A stretch of 12,456 bases of DNA from Myxococcales bacterium UBA5297. Lineage in GTDB: Bacteria; Myxococcota; Myxococcia; Myxococcales; UBA5297. Made by a program: the position numbers and the translations under genes. Position 1 is the stretch's first letter. Each line of letters begins with the position of its first letter. Positions 420 through 11,422 of this stretch are shown one piece after another. The stretch spans positions 19,606 through 32,061 of the forward strand of contig DHSB01000058.1 of assembly GCA_002408385.1 (NCBI GenBank). The letters are read 5' to 3'. The notes below the pieces were generated by a model. It was not told the DNA's origin, ran no database searches, and was given only the letters and a program-made list of their open reading frames with translations.

Positions 420-1004
420 GGGCCAGGGGCTCGGGGTGAACGGGAATGCCGGCCGCAATCACCGAGGAGGCGAACCGGCTCCATTGCGCTCGAGAATGGC
501 GCGGCCGGCTGAATGGAAGCTCGGTCTTCTGCGCGAGAGCGCCGCGCTGCGCAGCCCGCAGGTTCACCCGAGCTCAGTCGCGAGCCGACCCTGGCAACCG
601 GCTGTCGCGCAATTCGACTTACCGAGCTGCCGGTCGCTTCCCACGCGGGTCGTGTAGACCGCCCCGGCTCCGCATCTGGCTCGGGACGCGAGCCTCTGCC
701 CGTCCTGCTTCAGCAGGCAGGCCTCCTCGGCGGACTGAGGCCAGGGCGGCGACTCGCTCCGAGAGCCCTCTCCTACACCCCAGGACCGCTTCGAAACCGT
801 CCGGCACGGGCGCCAATTCATTGCCGCACCCCGAACCGGCGGGCAGGGGCTCAACGTCCCACACATCCCGCAGCCAAGGCGCCATCGCGTTATTCGCCTC
901 TTGCACTGTGCGACATTATCCATTTCCCTTTAGACTACTTAGCGAGCCTCGTCGGCCGGGCGTTGGGCGTCGTTTTCGTTTCGGGGAAAGATAAGAGGGA
1001 GCAG
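412..1004. other. 593-base region without a recognisable gene
   Basis: Open frames here translate to low-complexity Arg/Pro/Ala-rich strings typical of GC-rich noncoding DNA. No RNA gene, sigma-54 element (GG-N10-GC with TTGC) or GTTCCA/TGGAAC half site is seen. The stretch from about 886 to 950 is the most AT-rich part and is the likeliest place for the hydrogenase-gene promoter, but no -35/-10 pair with normal spacing stands out. Confidence 0.5.
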
Positions 1005-2907
1005 GTGTCACGTGATCGCCCGTTGATACTGACCAGCCCGGGCAAGTGCGCCGGCTGCAACAAATGCATTGCGCGCTGCCCGTCACCGGACGCCAACTCC
1101 TCGGTCTTGGCCGGAGACTCGTCTTTCGTGTCAGTCGATCCGCTGCGCTGCATCGCGTGCGGGGCCTGCCTGCGCGCCTGCGACCATGACGCGCGCTACT
1201 TCGAGGACGATACCGAGGCCTTCTTCGCCGACCTCGCGCGCGGTACGCCCATCTCCGTGGTCGTCGCTCCGGCGGTGCGCGCCAACTTCCCCAGGCCCGA
1301 GCTGTTGCTCGGCTTCCTGAAAAGCCAGGGCGTGAGGCTCGCCTTCGACGTCTCCTTCGGCGCCGACATCACGACCTGGGCCTACCTCAAGGTGATCGGG
1401 GAGCGGGGCCTCGATTCGGTGATCGCCCAGCCGTGCCCGGCGATCGTCAACTACATCGAGCGCTATCTCCCCGACCTCATCGGCCGGCTCGCGCCGGTTC
1501 ACAGCCCGATGATGGCCTCGGCGATCTACCTGCGCCGCTACCTCAACGCGACCGAGCGGATCGCGTTTCTGTCGCCCTGCGTGGCCAAGTCCGACGAGAT
1601 CCGCGCTGCCGAGACCGGGGGCTTGGTCAGCTACAACGTCACCTTCTCCGGGCTGCTGCGGTACCTCGAGCGTCGCCGCGCGCGGCTCGAGGAGTCCTCG
1701 CCCGCGGGTTATGACGATCTGGGCTGTGGCCCTGGGGTTGCTCTACAGCCGTCCGGGCGGGCTTCGCGAGTGCGTCGAGCACGTCGCCCCGGGCGCCTGG
1801 GTTCGGCAGATCGAAGGCCCCGAGCGCGCCTACCCCTACCTTCACGCCTACGGGGAGCGGCTGCGCGCGGGCAAGCCGGTGCCCCTGCTCGTCGACATCC
1901 TGAGCTGCGCCGATGGCTGCAACCTCGGCCCGGGCACGACCGGGGAGGCCGCGCTCGACGACATCGACGCGACCTTCAACGCGCTGAAGGCCTCACGCAT
2001 CGCGCAACGCGACGGCTGGTTGCGAAAGCCCGCCTCGCTGCTGCGCTACTTCGAGAAGAGCTTGCGCGTCGAGGACTTCCAGCGCTCGTACCGCTCGCGC
2101 GCCGAGGAGATAAGCCGCACCGAGCCCGGTGCCGCGGCGATAGCGCAGGCCTTCGCGGCGATGCGCAAGCAGACGCCCGAGTCGCGCTCCATCAACTGCA
2201 CCGCCTGCGGCTACCAGAGCTGCCGGCGCATGGCGGTCGCCATCGCGCGCGGGCTGAACCACCCGGGCAACTGCATCTACTTCACCCGCGAAGAGATGAA
2301 GTCGGAGAAGGCGCAGATAGAGCAGGCGCACGCCAGCCTGCAGCAGTCGAACGCGCGCATCGGGAACAGCGTCGCGGAGATGACCCAGGCGCTCGAGTCG
2401 CTCGCCGGCTCGAACCAGGCAGCCGTGCGGGACGTGGAGCAGGTCGAAACCAACCTCGGCGAGGTGCGGGCCGCAGCCTTGCGGCTGCGCGATGCGGTTG
2501 CGGCCATCAACCAGTGGCTGGGCAAGTTCGACGGGGCCATCGAGGACATTCTCGGAGTGGCGGGGGTCACCCACGTCGTCTCCGTCAACGCCTCGCTCGA
2601 GGCCGCGCGTGCCGGGGAGTCAGGCAAGCCGTTCGTCCCCATCGTCGGCGCCGTGCGCCGGCTCGCCGAGGACTCGAGGGCCGTGGCGCAGGCGATCAGC
2701 CTCGAGCGCAAGTCGGTCGGCGCCCGTATCGACGAGATCGATGGGGTCTCCGCGCTGCTCGAGTCGAGCACCGCGCTGGTCGAGGCCGCGATGCAGGACC
2801 TGACTGCGGCCGCCACGCGCATCGCGGCCCAGTCCGGCGAGATCTCGGAGGCCGCGCGGCTGCTCGCGGAGTCGGCATCCGAGGAGGAGAGCGACGGGCT
2901 CGGGTAG
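1005..2907 (+). CDS. Sensory-type [FeFe]-hydrogenase fused to a chemoreceptor-like output domain (one frameshift)
   Basis: Corrected for one extra base, the protein is about 633 residues. Order: two [4Fe-4S] ferredoxin motifs (C15/18/21/25 and C49/52/55/59); an [FeFe]-hydrogenase H-domain (about 80-330) with motif L1 as QPCPA (C144), L2 as SPCVAK (C192) and L3 as SCADGC (C301, C305); a CX2CX4CX16C motif (C398/401/406/423); then an Ala/Glu-rich helical tail with a methyl-accepting-chemotaxis-protein-like hairpin (about 516-557, containing VNASLEAARAGE and RRLAEDS). All four H-cluster cysteines are present. The catalytic proton-relay Cys of the usual TSCCP motif is Pro143, and the CX2CX4CX16C motif is typical of sensory [FeFe] hydrogenases, so H2 or redox sensing rather than bulk turnover is inferred. 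There is no transmembrane segment or PAS domain, so it should be cytosolic. GTG at 1005 is preceded by AGAGGGAG at 994-1001. As sequenced, the reading frame changes at 1730-1732, so it may be a pseudogene or carry a sequencing error. Confidence 0.85.
1728..1735 (+). other. Frameshift point in the hydrogenase-like gene
   Basis: Codons up to 1730 read ...GYDDLGCG. The family-like continuation, LGLLYSRPGGLRE, is found one base over, starting at 1732. Removing one C from the CCC at 1730-1732 restores a single frame from 1005 to 2907. The frame before the break stays open but yields Arg-rich nonsense to 2915, so a premature stop is not immediate. I see no clear slippery heptamer with a downstream hairpin that would suggest programmed shifting. 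Confidence 0.85.
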
Positions 2908-2940
2908 TGAGGTGAGGCGCGCTGCGGCGGGCCAGACCCT

Positions 2941-3529
2941 TCAGAGCCGAGCGCATCGCCGAGCGCGCGCGTCGAGAGCGTCGCGTCTTGGCCGCGGTTC
3001 GCTCACGAGCGCGAGCATCGCCGCTTTGAGCTCGCGCGCATCGGGGGCGAGCCGCTCGTCGGCCTCGAGCGCGATGTCCTCCCAGGTCGCGCAGAAAGCC
3101 ACTTCAACCGCGTCCGGTGCCTCGGCGAAGGGGCGCCGTATTCGTGGATCCCAAGGCGCGCGACCTCGAGCCCCCAGGCTCCGGGGGCACGCGAGACCTG
3201 TACTTCGAGCGGCGATCGCCGCCGGAACCGAGCGAGGCCTCCAGCAATCATCGGGAGCTCTCGGCGGCGGTCAGCGCTGTCTCGAGGCTCCCTCCGCGCC
3301 GCCCGTCGATGACCCGGGCTGCGGCGATCGCATGGAACCAAGCCAGGCGACTGTGCCCGCGGTCGAGAGTCTCGAGCGCCTGCTCGAGGGCGCGCTTCGA
3401 GGGTGGCTTCCGCTCGGCGAGCCTCGCCAAGGCCAGCCCGGCCGCCGTCACGTCTTTCGCGCGAGCGTCGCTCAATCCCTCACCATCCCTGGTCCAACGC
3501 GAACCGATGCGCCATCGCCACGCGAACAA
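2941..3529 (-). pseudogene. Degraded hypothetical gene, two frameshifts
   Basis: Three consecutive minus-strand frames give protein-like sequence when joined. The first runs from about 3529 to 3255 (DARAKDVTAAGLALARLAER..., ...LAWFHAIAAARVIDG). The second runs from about 3253 to 3134 (LPMIAGGLARFRR..., LEVARLGIHEYGAP). The third runs from about 3133 to the stop at 2941 (FAEAPDAVEVAFCATWEDIA, LEADERLAPDARELKAAM). One base is missing at each junction, the second in the run of G at 3130-3133. Amino-acid composition and alternation are those of a real globular protein, unlike the Arg-rich shadow frames around it. I do not recognise the family. The start is uncertain: ATG at 3529 lacks an obvious ribosome binding site, and the gene may have been longer upstream. 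Confidence 0.5.
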
Positions 3530-3576
3530 CGCTGGCGATACGCGGCCGCTTCCGCCGCGGTCGATCGCTCGTCCAG

Positions 3577-3964
3577 GGCTCGGTCGGTTGTGGTGTGGTC
3601 CCCCAATGCGACCGGCCGCTCGTTCGAACGAGCGGCCGGAGCCCTACATCCAGCGAAGAGGTGGCCTCGCGCTACACCTTGGCCAGCGCCTCGTCGAGCG
3701 CGTTCCGCAGATCGTCCAAGTCCTCGAGGCCGACCGAGAGACGCACGAGCCCGTCGGTGACGCCGCCCTTCTCGCGCTTCTCCTTGGGCACGCAGGCGTG
3801 GGTCATCGACGCCGGGTGTTGGATGAGCGAGTCGACGCTGCCCAGCGAGACGGCCAGTGTCCAGATGTGGATCGCGTCCATCAGCTTGCGGCCGGCCTCG
3901 AAGCCTCCCTTCAGCTCGAAGGAGACCATGCCGCCGTAGTTGCGCATCTGCTTGCCGGCCAGCT
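3577..3964. repeat. Long direct repeat, copy 2 (partner at 31-411)
   Basis: This is the second copy of the repeat described at 31-411. It comprises the sequence downstream of the intact PLP enzyme gene, the perfect palindrome at 3612-3639 and the gene's last ~97 codons. Because this copy is part of an intact gene, it is probably the parent copy and the left one the relic. Confidence 0.85.
3612..3639 (-). terminator. Perfect 28-base palindrome, probable 3' hairpin of the PLP enzyme gene
   Basis: Two 14-base arms, CCGGCCGCTCGTTC and its exact complement, abut with no loop, 33 bases beyond the stop codon of the minus-strand gene at 3672. No U-tract follows on the minus strand, so it is not a canonical intrinsic terminator. 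It could act as a 3' stabilising hairpin, a weak terminator or a protein-binding site. The palindrome is kept, with one change, in the other repeat copy. Confidence 0.5.
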
Positions 3965-4934: not shown

Positions 4935-5123
4935 CGTCCTCTCCGCTCAGATGGCGATCGCGCGGCCGGTCGCCGGCTGGATGCCGAGGCGCCTTCCGCG
5001 TGGTCGGCCCGAGCGCGACCGGCCGTCCGATGGCGGGTCGGCAACGCGCTCGAGGGCGGGCACGGGTAGCGAGAATCGAGCCAGCCTGCCCCCTGGCTCG
5101 GCGGCGACCCGGCGATGCGGTCT

Positions 5124-5141
5124 GTTCCAGATGCCTGGAAC
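5124..5141. promoter_or_regulatory. Palindromic operator upstream of the sigma-54 regulator gene
   Basis: GTTCCAGATGCCTGGAAC: perfect 6-base inverted arms around a 6-base spacer, centred ~126 bases upstream of the regulator start at 5259. The same arms recur upstream of the -24/-12 promoter of the target operon (6895-6912). This suggests the binding site of the regulator itself, giving autoregulation. A related half site, TGTTCCAGG, follows at 5166-5174. No protein-binding data; inferred from motif sharing. Confidence 0.6.
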
Positions 5142-5165
5142 GGTTCGGCGGAAACCGAGGCGAAA

Positions 5166-5174
5166 TGTTCCAGG
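5166..5174 (+). promoter_or_regulatory. Half site of the GTTCCA operator
   Basis: TGTTCCAGG repeats the left arm of the 5124-5141 palindrome 43 bases downstream. It is the near reverse complement of CCTGGAACAG at 6862-6871 in the target operon's control region. A single half site could be chance; its spacing near the full palindrome makes it worth listing. Confidence 0.35.
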
Positions 5175-5258
5175 TGGTCGCCTGTTGCGCTACAGGGAAG
5201 CGCGGCTCGATGCCTGCACGGTATCGAGGCTCTGGAAGAACGGAGGGATGCACTGCAG

Positions 5259-6638
<1,380 letters not shown>

Positions 6639-6861
6639 GACGTTCCTGAACGCCTGGCACCTCCTCCCCGCGTCGGCCCCATCCCAAGCCAACGGAGCGC
6701 CGGCCAGTGCCGGCCGCGGGTGCGAGCGATCCCTGTTCGCAGACCCGAGCCGTCGGAGGGCCGGCCTTCGGGCGCCTTCGTGCCGGCCGAGCAGGACGCC
6801 GCATCCTGCGCCACAACCAACGCACGACCGACCGATCGGGCCGCGCAAGGCCGGCAAGCCG

Positions 6862-6871
6862 CCTGGAACAG
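6862..6871 (-). promoter_or_regulatory. Operator half site upstream of the ORP-like operon
   Basis: CCTGGAACAG; its reverse complement CTGTTCCAGG matches the left arm and flanks of the site at 5122-5130 and the half site at 5166-5174. It is about 117 bases upstream of the predicted transcription start (6984), a usual distance for an enhancer site. Confidence 0.4.
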
Positions 6872-6894
6872 TCGGGCTTCCGGGTGAAGCAGGA

Positions 6895-6912
6895 CGTTCC
6901 ACGCTTGGAACG
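6895..6912. promoter_or_regulatory. Palindromic enhancer site upstream of the sigma-54 promoter
   Basis: CGTTCCACGCTTGGAACG: perfect 7-base arms with a 4-base spacer. The core arms GTTCCA/TGGAAC are the same as at 5124-5141, although the spacer is two bases shorter. Its centre lies about 80 bases upstream of the predicted start, which fits an upstream activating sequence for a sigma-54 enhancer-binding protein. Confidence 0.65.
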
Positions 6913-6957
6913 GAGGAGGGGCGCGGACCGGCTTCACCACAGGCGCGCCGAGCCGGG

Positions 6958-6973
6958 TGGCACATGCGTTGCT
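6958..6973 (+). promoter_or_regulatory. Sigma-54 (-24/-12) promoter of the ORP-like operon
   Basis: TGGCACATGCGTTGCT fits the consensus TGGCACG-N4-TTGCW at all positions but one, with the invariant GG and GC separated by exactly 10 bases. With C6972 as -12, transcription would begin near 6984, only three bases before the first gene's best start codon (6987). The regulator gene immediately upstream encodes a sigma-54 activator, and palindromic sites lie at -80 and -117, all of which supports function. Confidence 0.8.
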
Positions 6974-6986
6974 CAAACGCGGATCG

Positions 6987-7346
6987 ATGGCACTGCGAAT
7001 CGGCATCCCACTCTTTGGCGACGAGGTCTCACCGCGGTTCTGCTTCGCGGGGCGGATGCTGGTCGTGACGGTCGCCGACGACGGGGCCGAGCTCTCGCGC
7101 GAGACGATCTCGCTGGGCAGCACCTGGTTTCCGGATCGGCTGGCGCTCGTCGCCAGCCGAGGGATCGCCGTTGTCGTGTGCGGCGGCTTCAACGCCGCCT
7201 TCCTCCCGCAGGCCGAGCAGATGGGCATCCGAGTGATCAGCGGCGTCGCCGGCGACGCCGAGCAGGCGTTCGCGAGCTTCTTGGCGGGCAAGCTCGTCTC
7301 GCGCCGCCGGTGCGGAAGAGCGACGGGACGGCGCCACAGGTCCTGA
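6987..7346 (+). CDS. NifX/NafY-like DiNase-domain protein 1 of the ORP-like operon
   Basis: 119 residues. The opening RIGIPLFGDEVSPRFCFA is the hallmark N-terminus of the dinitrogenase iron-molybdenum cofactor-binding fold (PF02579-like), which in relatives binds metal-sulfur clusters (NifB-cofactor, or the Mo-Cu-S cluster of orange protein). Cysteines lie at 19 and 65; the C-terminus is Arg-rich. ATG 6987 is chosen because the domain starts right there. The in-frame GTG at 6957 begins one base before the -24 element and would lie upstream of the predicted start. No Shine-Dalgarno fits, so a leaderless message is possible. It is the first gene of the operon. The exact ligand is not inferable. 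Confidence 0.8.
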   Translation: MALRIGIPLFGDEVSPRFCFAGRMLVVTVADDGAELSRETISLGSTWFPDRLALVASRGIAVVVCGGFNAAFLPQAEQMGIRVISGVAGDAEQAFASFLAGKLVSRRRCGRATGRRHRS

Positions 7347-7372
7347 AAGGCATCAACCCCAAGGCATCAACC
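7347..7372. repeat. Short tandem direct repeat between genes 1 and 2
   Basis: AAGGCATCAACC occurs at 7347-7358 and again at 7361-7372 (period 14) in the 42-base gap between the first two operon genes, just before the AGAGGAGA ribosome binding site. Probably a small slippage duplication; no function is evident. Confidence 0.6.
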
Positions 7373-7388
7373 AAGCAGAGGAGAACTC

Positions 7389-7775
7389 ATGGCGAAGCTC
7401 GTAGCGGTAGCGTGCGAAGACGATCAGGGACTCGGAGCGCAGGTGAGCATGCACTTCGGGCGGTGTCCCTTCTTCACTCTGGCTCAGGTCGACGAGGGCA
7501 AGATCCTCTCGGCGCAGGTCGAGAAGAACCCGCACTTCGGAAACCATCAGCCCGGGCAGATGCCGGTTTTCATCGGCTCTCTGGGCGCCAACGTGATCCT
7601 GGCCGGCGGCATGGGGCCGAAGGCGGTCCAGATGTTCGAGCAGATGGGCATCGAGGTCGCCACCGGCGCGGTCGGCAAGGCCGAGAAGGTGCTCCAAGCC
7701 TGGCTCGACGGGCAGCTCAAGGGCACTGCGCCCTGCAACCACGACCACCCGGAGAGCTGCGGAGGCCACCACTGA
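7389..7775 (+). CDS. DiNase-domain protein 2 with Cys/His-rich C-terminal tail
   Basis: 128 residues of the DiNase (MTH1175/orange-protein-like) family: N-terminal strand KLVAVACEDD, the family-typical MHFGRCPFF (21-29), and the GANVILAGGMGPKAVQMFEQMGI core (66-88). After a complete domain it ends in CNHDHPESCGGHH (116-128), a probable metal-binding extension. The ATG follows AGAGGAGA. The family binds metal-sulfur clusters without catalysis; here it is the closest counterpart in the operon to the Desulfovibrio orange protein. It overlaps the next gene by one base (TGATG). Confidence 0.85.
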   Translation: MAKLVAVACEDDQGLGAQVSMHFGRCPFFTLAQVDEGKILSAQVEKNPHFGNHQPGQMPVFIGSLGANVILAGGMGPKAVQMFEQMGIEVATGAVGKAEKVLQAWLDGQLKGTAPCNHDHPESCGGHH

Positions 7776-8134
7776 TGCGGCGCGTGGCCATCGCCATCGG
7801 TGAAGGCAGCGACCTCGACGCGCGGGTCGGTCCTCACTTCGGGCGTGCCGAGCGCTTTCTCGTCGCCGACGTCGAGACCGGCGCGCTCGTCGAGGTGAGG
7901 CAGAACACCGCGGCCCAGGATGCCCACGGCGCGGGCACGGGCGCCGCCGGCTTGGTCGCCGACCTGGGCGCCGGCGAGGCGATAGCCGGCCGCTTCGGGC
8001 CGAAGGCCTACGACGCCCTGCGTGCCCTCGGCATCGCGATGTACCAGGTGCCCGAGGGCCTGCTCGCCCGCGAAGCGCTCGCGCAGCTCAGGGACGGCAA
8101 GCTCTTGCCGTTCGAGGTGAAGGTCATCGAATGA
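7775..8134 (+). CDS. DiNase-domain protein 3
   Basis: 119 residues. It starts RRVAIAIGEGSDLDARVGPHFGRAERFLVAD, with the family's HFG element at 21-23 and a core with AGRFGPKAYDALRALGI (71-87). It is a third small cluster-binding-type domain in the same operon. The start ATG overlaps the preceding stop (TGATG), with GGAGG at 7761-7765; the end overlaps the next ATG by four bases (ATGA), indicating translational coupling. It has no cysteine, unlike its two neighbours, so any cluster would need other ligands or a partner. Confidence 0.83.
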   Translation: MRRVAIAIGEGSDLDARVGPHFGRAERFLVADVETGALVEVRQNTAAQDAHGAGTGAAGLVADLGAGEAIAGRFGPKAYDALRALGIAMYQVPEGLLAREALAQLRDGKLLPFEVKVIE

Positions 8135-9000
8135 AGATCGCAGTGGCGAGCGGCAAGGGCGGCACCGGCAAGACGTTGATCGCGACTCACCTCGCGTGGG
8201 CCCTCGCGCGGGCCGGCGAGCCGGTCACCTACGTCGACGCCGACGTCGAAGCGCCCAACGGGCACCTCTTCCTGCGCCCGGAGATAGCCGAGGAGCGGCC
8301 GGTCTCGGTCGCCGTCCCGGCGATGGTCCGGCCGACCTGTGCCGGGTGCGGCGACTGCGCCCGGGCCTGCGCCTTCCACGCGATGCTCGCGGCCAAGGAT
8401 CGGGTCATCGTCCTCCCCGAGCTGTGCCACTCCTGTGGGCTGTGCCTCGAGATCTGCCCGGAGCGGGTGCTCGAAGAGCGGCCGCGGCGCCTCGGCGTGG
8501 TGTGCGAGGGCCGGGCCGGCCCCATCCGCTTTCTCTCGGGAGTGCTCGACGTCGGCGAGGCGCGGGCGACGCCGCTGATCTCGGCGCTCGCCTCAAGCCT
8601 GTCGGCCGAGGGCACGACGATCATCGACGCGCCCCCGGGTACCTCGTGCCCGGCGATGGAGGCGGTGCGCGCGGCTGACCTGGTCGTGCTGGTCACCGAG
8701 CCGACGCCCTTCGGGCTGCACGACTTCGAGCTCGCCGTGCAGATGTGCCGGGCGCTCGGCAAGCGCGCCTACGCGGTCCTGAATCGGGTGGGCCTCGGGC
8801 AGACGCCGATGGACGAGGCGTTCGCGCGCCACGGCACTCCGCTGGTGGCGAGCATCGGCTTCGACGCGGCGATCTCCGCGGCCAGCGCCGAGGGGCGGAT
8901 GGCCGACGAGAGCTCGGAGACCTTGAAGAAGGGCCTGCTCGAGCTGCTGCTGCGGCTCGGCGAGGACTGGCAGTCGCTCAGCCCCGCGGTGAACCCATGA
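8131..9000 (+). CDS. MinD/Mrp-family ATPase with two inserted [4Fe-4S] ferredoxin motifs (1)
   Basis: 289 residues. The deviant Walker A motif SGKGGTGKT is at 7-15, followed by YVDADVEAPN (34-43). A ferredoxin insertion has C70/73/76/80 and C99/102/105/109, each CX2CX2CX3C. The later P-loop ATPase core includes IIDAPPGTSCP and the VLVTEPTPFGLHDFELAV segment typical of the family. Such paired ferredoxin-MinD ATPases (for example DVU2103/DVU2104 of the Desulfovibrio orp locus) accompany cluster-binding DiNase proteins and are thought to drive cluster assembly or transfer with ATP; that role is inference here. It overlaps both neighbours by four bases (ATGA). Confidence 0.92.
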   Translation: MKIAVASGKGGTGKTLIATHLAWALARAGEPVTYVDADVEAPNGHLFLRPEIAEERPVSVAVPAMVRPTCAGCGDCARACAFHAMLAAKDRVIVLPELCHSCGLCLEICPERVLEERPRRLGVVCEGRAGPIRFLSGVLDVGEARATPLISALASSLSAEGTTIIDAPPGTSCPAMEAVRAADLVVLVTEPTPFGLHDFELAVQMCRALGKRAYAVLNRVGLGQTPMDEAFARHGTPLVASIGFDAAISAASAEGRMADESSETLKKGLLELLLRLGEDWQSLSPAVNP

Positions 9001-9911
9001 AGACCAGACAGCTCGCGGTGCTCAGCGGCAAGGGAGGCACGGGCAAGACCTCGCTCGTCGCCTCGTTGGCCGCGCTCGCCGGCCGCGCGGTCGTCGTCGA
9101 CTGCGACGTCGACGCGGCCAACCTGGCGCTCTTGATGCCGGGCTCCGACGGCCCGACCGAGTCCTTCTATGCCGGGCGGCGGGCCAGGATTCTGGAGGAG
9201 CGCTGCGCGGCCTGCGGCCGCTGCACCGAGGTTTGCCGCTTCGGCGCGCTCACGTTCCAGGGCTCGCGGCTGGTGGTCGATCGCCTGGCCTGCGAGGGCT
9301 GCGGCGCCTGCGCCCACGCGTGTCCGAACGCAGCGGTCGCCTACGACGACAACCTGGCCGGCGACTGGTGGGTGCGCCCGGTGGCCGAAGGGCTGCTCGT
9401 CCACGCGCGGCTGGGCATCGCCCAGGACAACTCGGGCAAGCTCGTCGCGAGCCTGCGCAAGACCGGGCGCGAGCTGGCCGAGCGCGACGGGTACGAGCTC
9501 GTGCTCGTCGACGGGCCGCCCGGCATCGGCTGTCCGGTGCACGCCGCGCTCAGCGGCGTCGACGCCCTGCTCGTCGTCACCGAGCCGACCGTCGCCGCCG
9601 AACACGATTTGCGGCGGATCGTCGGGCTGGCCGCCCGGTTCGAGGTGCCGACTGGCGTGGTCATCAACAAGCACGACCTCGTGCCGGGCGCCTGCGAGCG
9701 CCTCGAGCGCTCGTGCGCAGAGCTGAAGGTGCCGATTCTCGGGCGTATTCCGTTCGACCCGCTTGTTCCCGAGCGCGCGAGCAGGGGCCGGCCGGCCCTT
9801 GCTGCTTCGGCTGGTACCGCCGAAGCCCTGGCCGATGTATGGTCGCGCGCCCAGGAGAAGCTGTTGAGCGGAGAACCGAATGGAAGCAACCCCCACCTCA
9901 CCGGAGCGTAA
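8997..9911 (+). CDS. MinD/Mrp-family ATPase with two inserted [4Fe-4S] ferredoxin motifs (2)
   Basis: 304 residues, a paralogue of the preceding gene. Walker A SGKGGTGKT lies at 10-18, VVVDCDVDAAN at 32-42, and ferredoxin cysteines at 70/73/76/80 and 99/102/105/109, exactly the same positions as in the partner. The VDGPPGIGCPV and VTEPTVAAEHDLRR segments complete the core. The pair probably forms a heterodimer, as proposed for related tandem genes. ATG 8997 overlaps the previous stop (ATGA), and the 3' end overlaps the VKOR-DsbA start by 32 bases, so the membrane oxidoreductase is part of the same transcript. Confidence 0.92.
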   Translation: MKTRQLAVLSGKGGTGKTSLVASLAALAGRAVVVDCDVDAANLALLMPGSDGPTESFYAGRRARILEERCAACGRCTEVCRFGALTFQGSRLVVDRLACEGCGACAHACPNAAVAYDDNLAGDWWVRPVAEGLLVHARLGIAQDNSGKLVASLRKTGRELAERDGYELVLVDGPPGIGCPVHAALSGVDALLVVTEPTVAAEHDLRRIVGLAARFEVPTGVVINKHDLVPGACERLERSCAELKVPILGRIPFDPLVPERASRGRPALAASAGTAEALADVWSRAQEKLLSGEPNGSNPHLTGA

Positions 9912-11049
9912 GGCAGGCTGGAAGCTGTGGGCCGGCATGCTCGTCTTCGGCCTGGCCGGACTCGGCGTGGCCATCGAGCTGACGGTGCTGCACGTGCGCG
10001 TCCACCTCGATCCGGCGTTTCGCAGCTTCTGCGCCATCAATGAGACGGTCAACTGCGACACCGTCGCTCAGAGCCCCTACTCGGTTTTCCTGGGGGTTCC
10101 GGTCTCGGTCTGGGGAATCCTCGGCTACCTCGCGATGAGCGGGGTCGCCATCGCGGCCTTCCTGCTCAAGCGGCGCGGCCGCGACGTGCTCGCCGGGATG
10201 ATGCTGGCGCTCACGGGCTTCTCGGTAGGCATGAGCCTGGTGCTCGGAGGCATCTCGACCTTCAAGCTCAAGTGCTTCTGCCTGCTGTGCATGTTCACCT
10301 ACGGCATCAACCTGGTGCTGCTGGTCCTCTCGCTGCTCGAGGCGAGGCGTTGGGGCGTGGCCGCGAGCCTCCAGGCCGCCGTCGACTTCGTCGCCGGAGA
10401 GTGGAAGCGCGTCCTGCCAGTCGGCATCTTCGGCTCGGTCGCCGTCGTCGCGCTGCTCGCCTTCTACCCGGCCTACTGGGCGACGCCGGCGCACGCCGAC
10501 GTCGACCTATCTACCGGGGCCGACGCCTTGGGCGATCCCTGGATCGGCGCCAAGGAGCCGAAGCTGACGATCATCGAATACAGCGACTACCAGTGCCCGC
10601 ACTGCCGGCGCGGTCACGAGGAGATGCGCGCGCTGCTGGCCAAGCACCCGGACGACGTGCGGCTCGTCCATCGCAACTATCCGCTCGACGAGGCCTGCAA
10701 CCCAAAGATCAAGAGCGCCTTCCATCCCTACGCCTGCGAATACGCCAAGCTGTCGGTGTGCGCGGGCGAGCAGGGCAAGTTCTGGGAGGCCAACGACTAC
10801 CTCTTCGAGAACGGCAAGCAGGAGTCGCCGATAACGCCCGCGGCGCTGGTCAAAGCGATCAAGGCCGATCCGGGCAAGCTCGAGGCGTGCATGAAGTCGA
10901 GCGCGGCGCAGAGCCGGGTCGACGCCAACATCCAGGAAGGCATTCGCCGCGGCATCCAGGGGACGCCCAGCTTCCAGGTCGGCGACAAGGTCTACCCCGG
11001 CCGCCTGCCGCCCGAGGTGATCGACAGCTTCCTCTCGCCGGCGAAGTAG
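9880..11049 (+). CDS. VKOR-DsbA fusion, membrane thiol-disulfide oxidoreductase
   Basis: 389 residues. The N-terminal vitamin K epoxide reductase domain has about four helices (14-36, 77-96, 102-125, 134-154), a periplasmic-loop pair C51/C59 and the active-site CLLC at 134-137. A fifth helix (180-200) leads to a DsbA-like thioredoxin domain with CPHC at 239-242 and cis-proline in GTPSF (P363); extra cysteines are at 273, 286, 294 and 337. The family passes electrons from exported protein thiols through DsbA and VKOR to quinone, forming disulfides in the envelope. The start has GGAGAA upstream and lies inside the end of the second ATPase gene, so it is the last operon gene. Its pairing with cytosolic cluster proteins is unexpected. 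A strong hairpin follows at 11074-11111. Confidence 0.95.
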   Translation: MEATPTSPERKAGWKLWAGMLVFGLAGLGVAIELTVLHVRVHLDPAFRSFCAINETVNCDTVAQSPYSVFLGVPVSVWGILGYLAMSGVAIAAFLLKRRGRDVLAGMMLALTGFSVGMSLVLGGISTFKLKCFCLLCMFTYGINLVLLVLSLLEARRWGVAASLQAAVDFVAGEWKRVLPVGIFGSVAVVALLAFYPAYWATPAHADVDLSTGADALGDPWIGAKEPKLTIIEYSDYQCPHCRRGHEEMRALLAKHPDDVRLVHRNYPLDEACNPKIKSAFHPYACEYAKLSVCAGEQGKFWEANDYLFENGKQESPITPAALVKAIKADPGKLEACMKSSAAQSRVDANIQEGIRRGIQGTPSFQVGDKVYPGRLPPEVIDSFLSPAK

Positions 11050-11113: not shown

Positions 11114-11422
11114 TCAGTCGTTGGACTCCGGTCGCGCGCTCTCCACCGCCTCGAGCCGCTCGCGCAGCTTTTCGAGCTCGGCCTCGAGCGCGTCGGCGCG
11201 CGCCTTCAGGCTCTGAGTGTCGGTCTCCGGTGCGGCAGCTCCGATCGTCTGAGCGCGGCCGAAACCGGCGCGGCGGCCACCGCCCCAGCACCGGCCTCGA
11301 CCGCCGCCGAAGGGGCGCCCTGCGCGGCCGGCGCCGCGCACTTCACCCGGCGCGCAGTCGCCACGGCCCCCGCCGGTCCGTGGACCATTACCGTGGGGTC
11401 CTGTTCCATCGAATCGAGGCAT
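11114..11422 (-). CDS. DUF5320-type small Gly/Arg-rich protein with C-terminal coiled coil
   Basis: 102 residues. The N-terminus MPRFDGTGPHGNGPRTGGGRGDC is the signature of DUF5320 proteins (usually M-P-x-x-D-G-T-G-P-x-G-x-G-P-x-T-G-x-x-x-G-x-C). A Gly/Arg-rich middle follows, then a predicted coiled coil (about 70-98: SLKARADALEAELEKLRERLEAVE). From memory, such genes often sit beside DiNase and ferredoxin-MinD genes, as here, but their function is unknown. ATG 11422 has AAGGAGGA just upstream. It converges with the ORP-like operon and may have its own sigma-54 promoter at 11477-11493. Confidence 0.8.
   Translation of the reverse strand: MPRFDGTGPHGNGPRTGGGRGDCAPGEVRGAGRAGRPFGGGRGRCWGGGRRAGFGRAQTIGAAAPETDTQSLKARADALEAELEKLRERLEAVESARPESND

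Follow-up and report, generated by a model that had tools for sequence, protein, structure and literature searches.

The window analysed here is the whole stretch of 12,456 nucleotides, which corresponds to positions 19606-32061 of contig C96 in a 7.65-Mb genome of 255 contigs. It carries a gene, hydS, which starts with a GTG at 1005 and ends with a TAG at 2907, and whose intact product has 633 residues. The preliminary description had read in it a ferredoxin region, an H-domain with four H-cluster cysteines, a CX2CX4CX16C motif and a tail of the type found in methyl-accepting chemotaxis proteins (MCPs); all four were matched by Pfam and their residues located. The features, including those of the predicted hairpin, are the following:

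993 to 1001, + strand: ribosome-binding-site-like sequence AAGAGGGAG, read directly
1005 to 1733, + strand: 5' part of hydS in the frame of 1005, with the GTG, the ferredoxin domain and the first portion of the H-domain
about 1026 to 1214, + strand: ferredoxin domain, within the 5' part
1434 to 1436, + strand: codon of the H-cluster cysteine Cys144, preceded by that of Pro143 at the proton-relay position
1725 to 1735, + strand: one-base change of reading frame in the assembly
1726 to 2907, + strand: 3' part of hydS (frame of 1711-2907), with the remaining H-domain, the C-terminal FeS domain, the hairpin tail and the TAG
1906 to 1920, + strand: H-cluster cysteines C301 and C305, motif SCADGCN
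2197 to 2274, + strand: C-terminal [4Fe-4S] motif C398-X2-C401-X4-C406-X16-C423 (PF04060)
2275 to 2610, + strand: first long hairpin helix (residues 424-535), AlphaFold2 model
2539 to 2685, + strand: tip of the hairpin (residues 512-560), which carries VAGVTHVVSVNASLEAARAGESGKPFVPIVGAVRRLAEDS as its rewritten motif
2632 to 2895, + strand: second long hairpin helix (residues 543-630), AlphaFold2 model

The two ends of the gene agree with those first proposed for it, whereas its reading as a single frame does not hold: a one-base frameshift near 1730 had been missed. The stretch 1005-2907 has 1903 bases, a number not divisible by three, and the early H-domain lies in a different open reading frame from the later H-domain and the tail. 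Near 1730 the frame is continuous in three database copies, P0003, P0005 and P0006, whose aligned parts are 99-100% identical, and P0005 and P0007, the latter a near-identical fragment, change frame at other places. An indel of assembly or sequencing is therefore the likeliest cause, and a programmed frameshift was rejected on the same grounds. The break by itself would suit a decaying gene, a reading that we weigh below together with the tail, but the three copies in frame at that site and a coding-like GC3 on both sides of it (0.899 and 0.932) argue against decay. The window's own gene was left unmended, and P0003 (633 residues, 5 member sequences) served as its stand-in for the analyses of the whole protein.

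The base composition of hydS (0.696) matches that of its surroundings (0.70), so that its acquisition, if there was any, was not recent. The gene lies between two copies of the 3' end of a metB-like gene, positions 30-414 being a 91.8% direct repeat of 3576-3963, and this repeat could mark an insertion or a duplication. Next to hydS no gene could be recognised as an output partner, and no sigma-70-like promoter was found before it in 459-3700. The window holds three sigma-54-like sites (3.68 expected at up to two mismatches), of which none precedes hydS and one, at 1727, lies inside it. The Rfam search returned nothing at gathering cut-offs. Upstream of the window, contig C96 contains a run of N (L053, 16472-17986), and the genes just upstream are thus partly masked.

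Downstream, beyond metB, the Pfam domains delineate an ORP-like cluster (5115-9911), reported here as an observation in its own right that implies no link to hydS. Together with 11114-11422, this region codes for a PAS-containing sigma-54 activator, three Nitro_FeMo-Co (NifX-like) proteins, two MinD-type ATPases that contain ferredoxin inserts, and a DUF5320 protein; the first of the NifX-like proteins, at 24.4 bits, falls short of the 26.3 cut-off. A sigma-54 -24/-12 site that matches exactly (6958-6973; 0.01 expected) precedes the first NifX-like frame, whose ATG is at 6987, and a fusion of VKOR and DsbA (9880-11049) adjoins the ATPase genes. In another genome of the same family (G001), a similar activator at about 66% stands beside two NifX-like matches. 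The cluster presumably resembles, gene by gene, the orp cluster of Desulfovibrio. The latter, in the part of PMC3897727 consulted, comes with the sigma-54 regulator DVU2106.

The sensor half of the protein appears, from its residues, to be an intact H-cluster domain of the sensory type in which the relay cysteine has become a proline. The 5' part matches Fe_hyd_lg_C at 80.9 bits (cut-off 22.1), ferredoxin families match in the N-terminal region, and the FeS domain PF04060 is found at 32.7 bits (cut-off 23). All four H-cluster cysteines are present in P0003 (residues 144, 192, 301 and 305), and they are kept, like the four C-terminal cysteines, in every row of the alignment (98 rows, 78 from loci and 20 from database proteins that include P0003 and P0004). 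PMC10055695 describes, in the part consulted, the residues C299, M353 and M497 of CpI as altered in sensory enzymes; by spacing from the H-cluster cysteines, these correspond to P143, S190 and L299 in P0003, with a serine at the S190 position in 98 of 98 rows and Leu299 invariant in 45 rows. The loss of the relay cysteine to Pro143 had been noticed from the beginning and is borne out in P0003; the same proline occupies this position in every one of the 98 rows, against about 10% of sensory enzymes in the HydDB-based count of PMC10055695, and it looks like a mark of the MCP-linked subgroup. The H-domain was also expected to fall outside the catalytic enzymes, and it scores 71.7 bits with the group A model TIGR02512, whose cut-off is 405.95.

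These data bear directly on another reading of the protein, that of a catalytic H-domain feeding or taking electrons for metabolism. The retention of all H-cluster and ferredoxin cysteines would agree with catalysis, but the second sphere is of the sensory type, the domain lies outside group A, and the genome already possesses two group A enzymes (487.3 and 515.1 bits with TIGR02512), whose neighbours read by eye like HydB/NuoF; we regard this reading as very improbable. The two group A loci (G000:C193 with L010/L012, G000:C239 with L009/L013) each lie beside or near a different sensory hydrogenase, and one further enzyme of the genome is group-B1-like, at 288.6 under its model's cut-off of 450.

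The tail of hydS matches MCPsignal (PF00015) significantly, as the preliminary description had anticipated, with 41.4-42.2 bits for a cut-off of 34.6 and an E of 1e-10; in the genome search the match spans window positions 2500-2889. The AlphaFold2 model of P0003, built on a 45-sequence alignment, has a mean pLDDT of 86.4 (about 77-83 over most of the tail, lower at its end) and predicts two long helices, residues 424-535 and 543-630, with a turn between them. The first of these helices begins directly after the last FeS cysteine. The hydrophobic periodicity of the arms was reached by 0 (residues 427-511) and 13 of 2000 shuffles. In the model, the second helix has P545 in its opening turn, a place where a proline can be tolerated, and we do not claim a broken helix. 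Fold searches with the model gave, among the matches listed, only entries of the [FeFe]-hydrogenase type, over about residues 1-370 (up to 413), and no chemoreceptor folds. Pfam reported no HAMP domain in the protein.

Proteins of this kind were defined in 2016 by HydDB as [FeFe] group C2, "Chemotactic (putative)", with an H-domain linked to an MCP domain and H2 sensing given as putative (PMC5037454, in the part consulted). The output type is therefore not new, although its description as little characterised stands in so far as the limited literature searched contained no functional test of the MCP-linked group; nor did the literature consulted for this report hold a demonstration of H2 binding by a C2 protein. 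The architecture of the window's protein is that of group C2, and by its score outside group A and its place in the H-domain tree the protein would belong to this type. In that tree, P0003 and P0004 group together (SH-aLRT 100) inside a 72-row clade of MCP-tailed proteins (SH-aLRT 99); the tree is a quick one, on 77 of 103 rows kept after thinning, in which several of the five outgroup rows from the own genome are long-branched and the composition of P0003 and P0004 is unusual. P0004 is the one close relative of P0003 (77% identical). A database search with the 3' part retrieved it at 75% identity, along with 17 full-length relatives at 31-38%, and each of the 19 full-length proteins aligned, P0003 included, matches MCPsignal, Fe_hyd_lg_C and FeS.

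The combination of a hydrogenase and an MCP is, judging from these searches, widespread. A first scan of genome contigs with the window's 3' part as query confirmed no relatives, and the scan of named genomes confirmed at least 580, of which the best 80 loci were kept. By their titles, these 80 are mostly Bacillota, with Calditrichota, Spirochaetota, Cyanobacteriota, Armatimonadota, Acidobacteriota and Alphaproteobacteria also represented. Of these best 80, 78 have a recognisable MCP tip in one open frame with the hydrogenase; L070 has its MCP domain in the following open reading frame, and in L117 (Desulfosporosinus SbF1, 7875-10625), an open-frame protein of 875 residues with 49% identity over query residues 7-447, no MCP tip motif was found and the C-terminus is a different one. 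Within the window's phylum the gene is rare: among 195 genomes searched, a close match exists in the own genome only, and 4 of the 194 others match at E <= 1e-25, all at 31-35%, which is no closer than the 31% (H part) of the own kinase-type HydS L012. When the same gene was sought in 60 relatives, the best non-own match to the 3' part among those listed reached 36.2 bits, in the tail, and a plasmid search gave one match, at 32.6%, on a 2.6-Mb record.

In chemoreceptors, the hairpin tip is the site of docking on the chemotaxis machinery, and it is this part that P0003 and P0004 have rewritten. At the 19 tip columns conserved at 90% or more in 96 relatives, P0003 departs 8 times and P0004 9 times, while no relative departs at more than 3; seven of these departures carry the identical new residue in both proteins. 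Over the ferredoxin, H, linker and FeS domains, each of the two departs at only 3 of 93 conserved columns; the hairpin arms, which have no column conserved at 90%, fall outside this comparison. In a gapless alignment with 95 relatives, the tip of P0003 has changed at 11 of the positions conserved at 80% or more, and two of its new residues recur in relatives (Ile at +18 in 12, Val at -10 in 9). The log-odds of the tip against the family profile are 33 for P0003 and 28 for P0004, for a family median of 142 and a lowest value of 53. All 161 reference tails (96 C2 and 65 MCP) have V, I or A at +17 and Ala at +19, where P0003 and P0004 both have Pro and Val. The best 22 of these 161 tails are all C2, the MCP references having been trimmed for this comparison to some 220 residues around the tip, so that a tail swapped in from a resident MCP is not supported; together with the nesting of the pair in the MCP-tailed clade, this indicates that the canonical tip is likely the ancestral state.

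A tail-only search of a 5.8-billion set, in which the best 7995 candidates by shared words were scored, returned P0003, P0004, the frame-broken P0005 and then proteins at 51 bits or less; those among the latter that were compared have ordinary residues at +17 and +19, and no further protein with the rewritten tip was found. The new tip is thus seen in only two distinct proteins, of which P0004, a metagenome protein, comes without any context.

P0003 and P0004 are 84% identical in the H-domain, 73% in the tip and 71% on average in the arms, and the resulting excess of tip over arm identity (0.03) is the lowest of 86 pairs with an H-domain identity of 0.74-0.92, the next being 0.10 and the median 0.25. 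These pairs are not independent, and when one set of 20 disjoint pairs was picked greedily, starting with P0003/P0004, this pair was again the lowest. One may then ask if the tail is a relic, belonging to a sensor or slow hydrogenase whose hairpin merely dimerises, or to a decaying gene: the fall of tip conservation nearly to the level of the arms fits with this idea, as does the frame break of the assembly. Yet of 53 other pairs with a comparable H-domain identity, 45 have arms less conserved than those of P0003 and P0004, and therefore the tail is not simply decaying; the seven new residues held in common by two proteins that are 77% identical also speak against a relic, which we consider improbable.

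Part of the divergence is compatible, as far as sequences tell, with the role of a receptor, for some change of the tip appears to be tolerated elsewhere. An MCP of the same order, L029, has half of the change, QTHVLSVNASLEAARAG, with a canonical second half; L041 has a proline at +14 and P0040 one at +10; and the tips of seven MCPs from the same genome have log-odds of 41-117, the lowest being L006 with 41. The core LEAARAGE is kept in P0003, and P0004 has a Q for its G. These observations can be taken to mean that the window's protein is an ordinary C2 chemoreceptor which still docks in the array, its tip changes being either tolerated or matched by a co-evolved CheW or CheA. The PF00015 match above cut-off and the chemotaxis genes of the genome, which counts 17 CheW-domain matches and 12 MCPsignal matches including hydS, also go in this direction, as do the two relatives described below that stand before che genes. 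What weighs against it is that the L at -3 and the A at +19, lost here, are kept in all seven of the genome's MCP tips that entered the comparison, so that a shared array would need to accept both kinds, and that the tip no longer shows its extra conservation. We therefore hold continued docking to be unlikely, though it deserves serious consideration.

A search of the genome for maturation and chemotaxis genes had been suggested, and besides the CheW-domain matches the genome has HydF (551.9 bits) and HydG (491.7 bits), both above cut-offs. The proposal that the receptor feeds a CheA/CheW pathway gains from the operons of two relatives and is weaker for the window's own protein: its tip has diverged, hydS is the sole PF00015 match on its contig, and no CheW-domain gene was found in C96:1-51900, a stretch that includes the run of N.

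Among the 80 loci, CheW-domain genes lie in the flanks of four (L077, L085, L086 and L090), as found with a profile built from six CheW domains of the own genome. At L090 (Calditrichales MX18-03, 8001-15670), the hydrogenase-MCP runs to 10175, and four che genes come after it on that strand:

10219 to 13278, same strand as the hydrogenase-MCP: CheA-REC
13278 to 13721, same strand: CheW
13746 to 14816, same strand: CheB
14813 to 15670, same strand: CheR

At L086 (Desulfocucumis palustris, 7992-17137), the hydrogenase-MCP is followed by CheA-REC, CheW, a HAMP-MCP and REC-GGDEF, and the two proteins belong to one small clade (SH-aLRT 96). These operons are the most direct evidence found that C2 proteins control CheA, support that is genomic in nature, and their domains suggest adaptation by methylation in the case of L090 and a c-di-GMP output in that of L086. 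Flanking sequence of up to 8 kb yielded no CheW-domain gene at the remaining 76 loci; the downstream flank covers 3 kb or more in 66 of the 80. The 63 adjacent same-strand genes of the 80 loci (33 downstream and 30 upstream, within 250 bases) showed no recurrent family, the largest Pfam family having at most 4 members. C2 genes thus seem to lack conserved neighbours, as expected of orphan receptors.

The best reading of these data is that the hairpin of an H2/redox sensor no longer docks with the CheA/CheW array, or docks with it differently. We give a probability of roughly 0.6 to a soluble C2-type sensor that signals by way of an altered interface, or to another partner in the form of a dimeric rod, and not through the standard array. 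In such a scheme, H2 would bind at the H-cluster, where the relay cysteine is replaced by a proline, and change its redox state; the signal would pass to the C-terminal [4Fe-4S] domain by electron transfer or conformational change, and from there, through the long helix that starts after the last cysteine, to the chemoreceptor-like hairpin formed with its partner helix. These early steps follow proposals made for HydS in PMC13104023; the same source, in the part consulted, attributes to the C-terminal cluster of TamHydS a negligible effect on catalysis and says that this challenges earlier ideas on signalling. In the relatives, the canonical tip presumably controls CheA. In the lineage of P0003 and P0004, the sensing half and the arms would have been kept while the tip was rewritten and then kept in its turn, giving an output at a non-canonical tip. 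A stronger version, which we put forward tentatively, is that of a re-targeted hairpin: the H2-sensing rod would have left the CheA/CheW array and its rewritten, conserved tip would control a different partner, which, if true, would add a new class to the outputs of sensory [FeFe]-hydrogenases.

What is new here is a rewritten tip on a known architecture, together with the che operons of two C2 relatives, and both bear on how sensory [FeFe]-hydrogenases relay an H2 signal. The window's protein constitutes a natural control, with the same sensor and a changed tip, and L090 and L086, with their adjacent che genes, lend themselves to direct reconstitution, with H2 as input and CheA phosphotransfer or c-di-GMP as output.

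Compared with known chemoreceptors, the tail aligns over the hairpin with the cytoplasmic domain of the Tsr-type MCP 1qu7 (E 2.4e-8) and with receptor pieces of the T. maritima type (4jpb at E 3.5e-7; 3g67 and 3ur1). The protein differs from MCPs by having no HAMP domain reported by Pfam and by the replacement of the tip motif IAxQTNLLALN...GxGFAVVAxEV, and its hairpin tip lacks conserved residues of both the standard chemoreceptors and the C2 relatives. One residue of the E. coli receptor, R394, was described as a contact of CheA P4 in simulations (PMC6746300, in the part consulted). With HydDB group C2, the window's protein has in common its ferredoxin-H-FeS-MCP content (18 full-length relatives) and the proline at the relay position, and it departs from this group by the loss of the canonical tip and its rarity in its phylum. 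It resembles TmHydS by the non-prototypic residues around the H-cluster (PMC10055695), and TmHydS and TamHydS by the C-terminal [4Fe-4S] cluster (PMC10055695, PMC13104023), as these sources describe them in the parts consulted; TmHydS, however, continues into a PAS domain and has an alanine at the relay position, and TamHydS is devoid of PAS, whereas the window's protein has a chemoreceptor hairpin and a proline. The two other HydS of its own genome, L012 with a histidine kinase and L013 with a PAS-like domain (PAS_8 at 20.0 bits, cut-off 21.8), share the ferredoxin-H-FeS sensory core, L012 being 31% identical in the H part, but have different outputs, and each has a group A hydrogenase gene adjacent or close to it. 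Finally, the hydrogenase-MCPs of L090 and L086 have the same domain order as the window's protein and, unlike it, are longer (about 725-750 residues), carry a canonical tip and adjoin che genes.
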